From IMG/VR virus record IMGVR_UViG_3300046011_007986, positions 1 to 25,616 of that record: a stretch of 25,616 bases of DNA; one strand, 5' to 3'. How positions within the stretch are numbered: position 1 is the stretch's first letter; every line of letters starts with the position of its first letter. Positions 19,604-22,830 of this stretch are shown here, piece by piece. The translations under genes and the position numbers were made by a program. The stretch comes from a virus. Below the pieces are notes generated by a model. That model was not told where the DNA came from, did no database searches, and saw only the letters and a list, made by a program, of their open reading frames with translations.

Positions 19604-20370
19604 TCGCCGCCCTGGGGGAGGCAGACCACACGGAATCCAACTGCGAAGGAAAACCAGTGGGGACAATCGCGGTTGCGGTAGGCCGAGCGGCAGCCCCCGG
19701 GGAGGCTGAGCAAGAAGCCGCCGCGCAGCACCCTCCGCTCATACTCGCCGGCGCTTGGCATCAGCCAGGCGCTGCCATCGCTGGGCGCTCCTTCGTAGCT
19801 CCAATGCCAGTGATCTAGGCACCATTCACACACGTTGCCGTGCATGTCATGCAACCCCCAGGAATTGGCTGGGAACATCCCCACCGGCGTGGTCTGCTTT
19901 CGATACTCCCCCTTGGGGCCATCGCCATAGGAGTAGGTGGCGTCGTAATTGGCCAGATCGGAGGTGAGCGTGTCGCCAAACGCGAATGGCGTGGTGGTGC
20001 CTGCCCTGCAGGCGTATTCCCACTGCGCCTCGCTGGGCAAGGTGTAGTGGCGGCCCGTGCGTTGGCTCAGGCGGTGGCAAAACTCCATCGCAGCCAGCCA
20101 GCTCACATTCTCCACCGGCCGCTTGTAGCTATCGGCCTGATCGCTGAAGCGGGAGGGGTTGGGGTTGAGCTTGCGGCCCCAGCGTTCAGCCTCCTGCGGC
20201 CTCCACTCCGCCACCTCCTGCCACTGGGCCTGGGTGATGGGTGTCTTGCCCATGAAGAAGCCCTGCAGCGTCACCTCATGCTGGGGTCCTTCATCGATTG
20301 CTCGCTTGGCTTCATTGGGGGGGGAGCCCATTAGGAAGGAGCCGGCGGGGATTTCAATCAGAGGAATCAT
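19600..20370 (-). CDS. FGE-sulfatase/lectin-fold protein, DGR-target-like, copy 1
   Basis: This 256-residue protein has the FGE-sulfatase fold: [39 protein letters not shown], then [38 protein letters not shown] and a C-terminal RVLRGG....GFRVV. True FGE enzymes need a Cys pair near RGGSW; here the first is absent, so it is a binding protein rather than a sulfatase activator. In copy 1 the usual SW of RGGSW is FL and the variable stretch is the most diverged ([12 protein letters not shown]). The tail VCLPQGGD matches copy 3. The copy starts 37 bases after copy 2 with a CACC-rich leader but no hairpin, so it probably shares copy 2's message. A run of eight C lies at codons 16-18. Confidence 0.85.
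   Translation of the reverse strand: [256 protein letters not shown]
19624..19725 (-). repeat. Variable region of copy 1
   Basis: This 102-bp segment runs from CGCGGCGGC to GTGGTC. Compared with copies 2-4, the changes fall mostly at codon positions 1 and 2 of codons ending in C. This copy also differs at SW (TTC TTG), GAT and TGT, so it is the most changed. Confidence 0.7.
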
Positions 20371-20407
20371 GGTGAATGGTGGGGTGATGGTGGGGGGGGA
20401 TCAGAGG

Positions 20408-21163
20408 TCAAGAGGCGACCACACGGAACCCAATGCTAAAGTGGGCAATGTCGGGCAAGGCGAGGCCGCGGTAGGCCGAGCGGCAGTTCCCGGGGTCGTC
20501 GAACCAGGAGCCGCCGCGCAGCAGCCTCTGCTCCTTTTCACTGGCGCTTGGCGTCAGCCAGGCGCTGCCATCGCTGGGTGCTCCCTCGTAACTGTCGTGC
20601 CAGTGATCCAGGCACCATTCCCATACGTTGCCGTGCATATCATGCAGGCCCCAGGCGTTGGCGGGAAACATCCCAACTGGTGTGGTCTGCTCTTGATACT
20701 CCCCCCTGGGGCCATCGTCATAGGTGTAGTTGGCGTCGTAATTGGCAAGCTCGAAGGTGAGCGTGGCGCCAAACGCAAAGGGCGTGGTAGTGCCTGCCCG
20801 ACAAGCGTATTCCCACTGCGCCTCGCTGGGCAGAGTGTAATGGCGGCCCGTGCGCTGGCTCAGGCGGTGGCAGAACTCCATGGCGTCATGCCAGCTCACC
20901 TGCTCGACCGGCCGCTGGTCGCTGTCGGCCTGATCGCTGAACCAGGAAGGGTTGGGGTTGAGCTTGCGGCCCCAGCGTTCAGCCTCCTGCGGCTGCCAGC
21001 TCGCCACCTCCCGCCACTGGGCCTGGGTGATGGGTGTCTGCCCCATGAAGAAGCTTTGCAGCGTCACCTCATGCTGAGGGCCTTCATCTCCGAAACGCTT
21101 GGCTTCATTGGGGGGAGAGCCCATCAGGAAGGAGCCGGATGGAATCTCAATCAGATCAATCAT
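20408..21163 (-). CDS. FGE-sulfatase/lectin-fold protein, DGR-target-like, copy 2
   Basis: This 251-residue paralogue begins at [15 protein letters not shown] behind leader copy I. Its domain order matches copy 1. The variable segment reads [31 protein letters not shown], and the protein ends VVAS, lacking the CLPQGGD tail. Its early C-run is six long and interrupted, unlike the eight-C runs of the other copies. Proteins of this type in DGR systems bind ligands through the variable face. The longer in-frame start at 21190 would translate the leader and is rejected. Confidence 0.87.
   Translation of the reverse strand: [251 protein letters not shown]
20417..20518 (-). repeat. Variable region of copy 2
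   Basis: This 102-bp segment is aligned without gaps to the other copies. Variable codons include TTC GAC GAC, AAC, GGC CTC GCC and GAC, all ending in C, while CGCTCGGCC and GGGTTCCGTGTGGTC are constant. Confidence 0.75.
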
Positions 21164-21237
21164 GGTGATGGTGGGGGGTGGGGGGGGCACTCCGCCCCGG
21201 TGCTTTCAATTGTAACCCGTAGAGGATGGCCTGTCAA
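21164..21237 (-). promoter_or_regulatory. Promoter and hairpin leader, copy I
   Basis: TTGACA (21237-21232), 17 bases and TACAAT (21214-21209) are followed by GGGGC (21198-21194), loop GGAGT, GCCCC (21188-21184), then a C/A-rich spacer to ATG 21163. About 86 bp are identical to copy L (offset 1634). The -35 overlaps the stop of copy 3. Confidence 0.75.
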
Positions 21238-22004: not shown

Positions 22005-22070
22005 GGTGAATGGTGGGGGGTGGGGGGCTCTCCGCCCCGGTGATTTCAATTCAGATGCAACCCTTAGAGG
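22005..22070 (-). promoter_or_regulatory. Hairpin leader, copy J (promoter disrupted)
   Basis: GGGGC (22038-22034), loop GGAGA, GCCCC (22028-22024), and a CACC spacer to ATG 22004. The GGGTTACAATTG element is split by about eight extra bases (GGGTT-GCATCTGA-ATTG), so the -10 is lost or shifted. Confidence 0.6.
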
Positions 22071-22071
22071 A

Positions 22072-22830
22072 TCAGGGAGTCAAGACCACACGGAACCCAA
22101 CGTTGACAGAGGCGTAGCCGGGCCGGCCGAGGAAGCGGTAAGCCGAGCGGCAGATCCCGGGGTCGAGGCTCCAAGAGCCGCCGCGCAGCAGCCTCATCTC
22201 CTCTTCACTGGCGCTTGGCGTCAGCCAGGCGCTGCCATCGCTGGGCGCTCCCGCGTAGCTGTTGTGCCAGTAATCCAGGCACCATTCCCACACATTGCCG
22301 TGCATGTCATGCAACCCCCAGGCGTTGGCGGGAAACATCCCAACTGGCGTGGTCTGCTTTCGCCACTTTCCCTTAGGGCCATCGCCATAGGAGTAGGTGG
22401 CGTCGTAATTGGCCAGATCGGAGGTGAGCGTGTCGCCAAACGCGAATGGCGTGGTGGTGCCTGCCCGGCAGGCGTATTCCCACTGCGCCTCGCTGGGAAG
22501 TGTGTAGTGGCGGCCTGTGCGTTGGCTCAGGCGGTGGCAGAACTCCATCGCGTCGTGCCAGGTCACTTGCGCCACCGGCCGCTGGTCGCTGTCGAGGCGA
22601 CCGCCGAAGCGGGAGGGGTTGAGGTGGAGCCTGCGGCCCCAGCGCTCAGCCTTTATCGGCGTCCACTCCGCCACCTTCCGCCACTGGGCCTGGGTGATGG
22701 GTGTCTGGCTCATGAAGAAGCCCTGCAGCGTCACCTCATGCTGGGGGCCTTCATCGTTTGCTCGCTTGGCTTCATTGGGGGGGGAGCCCATCAGGAAGGA
22801 GCCGGATGGAATCTCAATCAGGGGAATCAT
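22072..22830 (-). CDS. FGE-sulfatase/lectin-fold protein, DGR-target-like, copy 4
   Basis: This 252-residue paralogue is the most upstream of the four, starting at ATG 22830 behind leader copy K. The variable segment is [31 protein letters not shown], ending VLTP. Large stretches before the variable part are close to copy 3 at DNA level, with scattered silent changes, whereas the variable part is mostly replaced. The long in-frame extension upstream to 23067 overlaps the zinc-ribbon gene and is a shadow. Confidence 0.87.
   Translation of the reverse strand: [252 protein letters not shown]
22084..22185 (-). repeat. Variable region of copy 4
   Basis: This 102-bp segment has variable codons AGC CTC GAC, ATC, TTC CTC GGC and GGC at the same sites as in the other copies. 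Confidence 0.75.

Follow-up and report, generated by a model that had tools for sequence, protein, structure and literature searches.

Tandem DGR target genes in a freshwater cyanophage contig without a reverse transcriptase, probably diversified in trans by the DGRs of its hosts

Four FGE/C-type-lectin genes lie in tandem on the minus strand of the window, by which we mean the whole of IMG/VR record IMGVR_UViG_3300046011_007986 (25,616 bp, without terminal end repeats). The first of the array is g4 (22072..22830), followed by g3 (21234..22004), g2 (20408..21160) and g1 (19600..20370), and the proteins encoded by g1, g2 and g4 are 76-83% identical to that of g3. Each gene ends in a variable region (VR) of 96-120 bp, located at 22090-22185 in g4, at 20423-20518 in g2, at 19630-19725 in g1 and, as the RGG..GFR segment, at 21264-21359 in g3, whose VR is the best preserved. 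Taken together with the 3' boundary GTGGTCTGCCTCCCCCAG, which is the same in both genes and identical to that of a host template repeat (TR), the variable regions of g3 and g1 span 21246..21365 and 19612..19731 on the minus strand; g2 and g4 lack the CTGCCTCCCCCAG boundary. A 101-bp repeat (96%) that includes this boundary follows both g1 and g3 (19541-19641 and 21175-21275). A ligand-binding CLec/FGE fold is indicated by the match of g3 to Pfam FGE-sulfatase (4.8e-58) and by a match to the structure of TvpA (PDB 2y3c, E 7.6e-11), the mean pLDDT of the predicted model being only 66, and the FGE product is a putative lectin-like binding protein.

The window belongs to a freshwater cyanobacterial virus. 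A phage module on the plus strand (437..12016) encodes tail tube, tape measure, tail protein, minor tail and endolysin, and phage-type neighbours flank the FGE genes on the minus strand (22890..24822), among them a zinc-ribbon-like ORF (22890-23408) and an ORF at 24472-24822. The array belongs to a phage, because relatives of its flanking genes adjoin each other in a second phage contig (L006), which itself carries an FGE gene with a VR, and because the tail protein, endolysin and two small proteins of the window are shared with the phages of loci L004, L005 and L007, which have no reverse transcriptase (RT). A Sigma-70 family gene lies at 16228-17142. Megablast of the window against phages gave no match, and a search for the tail gene in prophages of 400 family genomes, in which no positive control rang and which is hence uninformative, gave none. 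The last 120 bases of the window are an exact repeat of 24907-25026; this looks like an assembly break, and the genome therefore extends past the window, which is a fragment. A pentapeptide-repeat gene is duplicated at 24819-25616, and the contig stops inside the second copy.

The original prediction held that the four tandem genes differ most in their 3' segments and are DGR targets that are either fossil or dependent on machinery located outside the window. The variability is borne out: pairwise differences at codon positions 1/2/3 number 138/120/241 in the gene bodies and 65/68/33 in the VRs (Fisher 4e-11; the pairs are non-independent), with third positions taking about half of the substitutions in the bodies and the last 36 codons, up to the end of GFRVV, changing mainly at positions 1 and 2. 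Between g3 and g4, 16/25 adenine sites differ in the VR, as against 45/615 sites in the body. At eight core codons (alignment columns 221, 222, 223, 226, 233, 234, 235 and 238) bases 1 and 2 vary and the third base is C in 31/32 cases, as first described, and CRSAYR and GFRVV are constant across the four genes; RGGSW is replaced by RGGFL in g1, the odd copy, which also has several third bases that are T or A. Variation extends to columns 239-243, with a less clean NNC pattern. We take all four to be variable-protein genes, targets of a DGR, of the FGE type seen in cyanobacteria.

Relatives of g3 were gathered from genome and viral collections. Several Cyanobium-like genomes contain a DGR with FGE-domain targets and a DGR-type RT (GLPIGNLTSQ), and in Microcystis elabens FACHB-917 a bAvd-like gene and a TR lie alongside the DGR RT. 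A template differing from the VRs at adenines, as had been foreseen, thus adjoins genes for a DGR RT and Avd in bacteria closely related to the likely host, and supports the reading of the window genes as DGR targets. Compared with the FACHB-917 TR (L011), the VR of g3 is mismatched at 17/25 adenines and 3/71 non-adenines (Fisher 3e-10), that of g4 at 18/25 and 4/71 (Fisher 2e-10) and that of g2 at 16/25 and 5/71 (Fisher 4e-8); in g1 the counts are 19/25 and 14/71, and confinement to adenines is only partial. No host TR agrees perfectly with g3; the 68/71 non-adenines shared here are with the TR of the nearest sequenced species, which may not be the actual host.

At third positions the VR of g3 equals the TR at 31/32, whereas the gene bodies agree with the closest host target at only ~62-66% (Fisher 7e-5, calculated with a body count estimated from identity). 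With agreement so much higher in the VR than in the bodies, a TR of this kind must have been the source of the VRs, and the VR framework is younger than the gene body, as would be expected under recopying. The exact TR core occurs in only 6 of the 400 sampled family genomes. FACHB-917 (genome G037, contig C56; L178, L138, L189) has a second DGR-type RT, 66% identical and with its own Avd gene; a search for the FGE motif did not find its target or TR.

The absence of an RT near the array, likewise claimed at the outset, is confirmed: the window, itself a fragment, has no RVT_1 match, no Avd match and no TR, and so contains no full DGR cassette. RVT_1 was not found in nine relatives and 25/27 further viral records (34/36), which reach 277 kb and 190 kb and include the MaMV-DC genome. 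The FACHB-917 RT as query had no match in six further phage genomes, LMM01, MaMV-DC, CH01, DL02 and DH01 among them, and no RT is present in five Fukuivirus genomes whose records are marked complete. Many related cyanophages, then, have FGE VRs but no RT; two small viral contigs (the records behind L117 and L119) encode their own RT with a TR. Another viral contig (L090:393-650) has a short ORF, with no FGE body or RT, in which an unmutated TR-like copy and a mutated VR stand in tandem.

Here we report that a VR was rewritten between two RT-less sister phages. G004 (44,054 bp) has an exact 57-bp terminal repeat and is taken as complete; G007 (53,303 bp) has long stretches in common with it, mostly at 90-98% nucleotide identity, and neither contains an RT, a TR or a significant Avd match. 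Each carries an FGE gene with two VRs, 130 bp apart. The bodies are identical at 658/688 positions, VR1 shows 0/96 differences and VR2 21/96, and the VR2 differences fall at 19/26 adenine sites of a related host TR and at 2/70 other sites (p=2e-12), the site bias that the original prediction expected between relatives. These differences sit at adenines in phages without an RT, and VR2 was thus rewritten after G004 and G007 split. VR2 ends in CTCCCCCAGG and a pyrimidine-rich tract; VR1 has neither, with a closely similar framework, and its unchanged state suggests that cis signals matter. LMM01 and MaMV-DC differ by codon position in the same direction, more weakly (last 40 codons 9/9/5, body 12/5/19; p 0.03). 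The TR inferred for the group of G004 and G007 was not found in the viral contigs or in 400 genomes, where the pattern used would also miss a TR of the FACHB-917 type.

In the window, the identity of g1 and g3 with the host TR extends as far as GTGGTCTGCCTCCCCCAG, and that of g2 and g4 stops short of it; an IMH-like VR 3' boundary is present in the former pair and missing in the latter. The g1 VR decays despite its intact flank within the 101-bp repeat. Most host VRs have a tract like CCCTTAACCCTTAATCC downstream, and many phage VRs have TAATTCTTTACCCTTTTACCC, with a pyrimidine fraction mostly of 0.63-0.77. The tract is missing downstream of all four window VRs (Y 0.47), after the VRs of L002, L090 and L095, and from TRs (0.42-0.50, the phage copy in L090 not counted). 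The repeated form CCCTTAACCCTTAATCC...GGCTGTT stands downstream of VRs, and not of TRs, in L011, L016, L021, L023, L029, L060 and others. The tract is possibly a cis element of this DGR clade. The downstream recognition element of BPP-1 is a hairpin; no such hairpin (stem 6 or more) follows the VRs of the window or hosts. Because g2 and g4 lack the 3' boundary, all four genes lack the tract and g1 is decaying, coupling in the window appears weakened: we take the array for a formerly active one whose coupling has since become weak, or which is frozen, with g3 the only good candidate for activity.

In a quick tree of 158 FGE bodies (SH-aLRT), the window genes form one clade with support 98 and no host members, whose neighbours are targets of FACHB-917 and an uncultured Cyanobium. 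Host sequences are interspersed with phage sequences of several separate origins (9 label changes, of which at least 5 are forced), and the Microcystis phages fall elsewhere, away from the window clade. The simple reading of such a tree is repeated capture from hosts.

Based on these observations, we propose that cyanophages took host DGR target genes and that these are diversified in trans, most likely by host DGRs, an explanation we hold to be probable. A cyanophage ancestor would have captured an FGE target from a Cyanobium-like host, and the genes would then have multiplied in tandem. A TR almost the same as those of Cyanobium-type DGRs would have been the source of their VRs by mutagenic retrohoming, in which the RT copies the TR, putting random bases where it has adenines, and the VR is replaced by the resulting cDNA. 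Only the target would come from the phage; RT, Avd and TR would be provided in trans, with the DGR of the infected cyanobacterium as the most likely source. We infer that the helper is the host's DGR, acting on the phage genome itself, and that the window array is weakly, or no longer, coupled to it. The original prediction is refined accordingly in two respects: the machinery is probably that of the host, and the window targets may now be partly uncoupled. The broader proposition, that freshwater cyanophages repeatedly capture host targets whose VRs they keep matched to the host TR, and that every infection of a DGR-positive cell thereby lets the host retroelement rewrite a phage binding protein, is in our view evenly balanced.

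It is possible, if less than probable, that the array is a fossil, its VRs diversified in a bacterium before capture and the genes, or a host array, taken up already different by a phage that never used a DGR. The lost boundaries of g2 and g4, the non-adenine mismatches of g1 and the missing downstream tract are consistent with this history; the concentration of g3-g4 differences at adenine sites of the VR, the clade without host members and the rewriting in RT-less sister phages speak against it. We consider it unlikely that the phage acquires its VR alleles through homologous recombination, with host DGR targets or other phages as donors, and that a DGR never touches phage DNA. Such exchange is feasible, since VR ends are conserved between hosts and phages, and would leave the same adenine-site pattern, yet G004 and G007 differ in VR2 while VR1, of closely similar framework, is identical, and no VR allele common to hosts and phages was noticed in a non-exhaustive search.

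A phage DGR (RT and TR) in the unassembled part of the genome is distinctly improbable: the window is a 25.6-kb fragment and the contigs of L117 and L119 do have such a cassette, but none is present in the complete relative G004, in records up to 277 kb or in the five Fukuivirus genomes listed above. Ordinary diversifying selection on lectin loops, without a DGR, is scarcely credible, for although FGE loops of paralogues often diverge, the third base here stays C in nearly every core codon at sites with up to four different residues, framework third positions match the TR at 31/32 with mismatches clustered at TR adenines, and the VR2 changes of the sister phages are the opposite of an even spread over codon positions.

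The window genes can be set beside several systems already described. Cyanobacterial DGRs with FGE/CLec targets (RT clade 5E, PMC10907252; Vallota-Eastman et al. 2020, PMC7517822) share with the window the FGE domain, VR position, framework and a TR match except at adenines, whereas the phage contig that bears the window targets has no RT, Avd or TR. The DGR of Bordetella phage BPP-1 (Mtd) likewise diversifies a phage lectin-fold protein with a C-terminal VR by mutagenic retrohoming, but it has its own RT, Avd and TR and acts on a tail protein, unlike the window, which has no machinery. TvpA of Treponema denticola (PDB 2y3c) has the same FGE/CLec fold and a C-terminal VR that aligns with the window VR, but is a cellular protein within a complete DGR. 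Trans targets inside one bacterial genome have been described with the same non-adenine criterion (PMC10907252); in Thiohalocapsa PB-PSB1 the VR is matched at non-adenines by a TR elsewhere, with TR and target in one cell genome, whereas the window target is viral. In the part of the literature that was searched, no paper describes the action of a host DGR on VRs carried by phages.

Searches that begin from the RT overlook targets without one, and one survey states that it was unable to see remote targets (PMC8144416); in RT-less cyanophages, VR-bearing genes are here seen to differ at adenine sites from one close relative to another. Should host DGRs be responsible, the virus gets targeted protein diversity at no genetic cost. 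Such DGR targets have been tied to anti-phage conflict systems and proposed as antigen sensors in defence (PMC10907252), so the copies in phages may serve as adhesins or as decoys; receptor binding and mimicry of host DGR targets are both candidate roles for the phage FGE protein.

Two tandem VRs, 124-130 bp apart, occur in the cyanophage FGE genes of L003, L004, L005, L007, L093, L094, L100, L102, L106, L107, L118 and L120. In 12/12 loci, not all of them from different phages, the gap is 1 mod 3; this puts VR1 out of frame and turns NNC codons into NCN. Out-of-frame VR1 encodes 70-79% Ser/Thr/Pro/Ala, a hypervariable, stop-free linker ahead of VR2. VR-like units are arrayed in other viral contigs as well (three RGGSW units in L008, four in L098 and two each in L103, L104 and L112), with a spacing of 141-161 bp, mostly 153. 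In Ma-LMM01 (L130:1872-2152), annotated 42-bp repeats lie just upstream of the FGE gene region.
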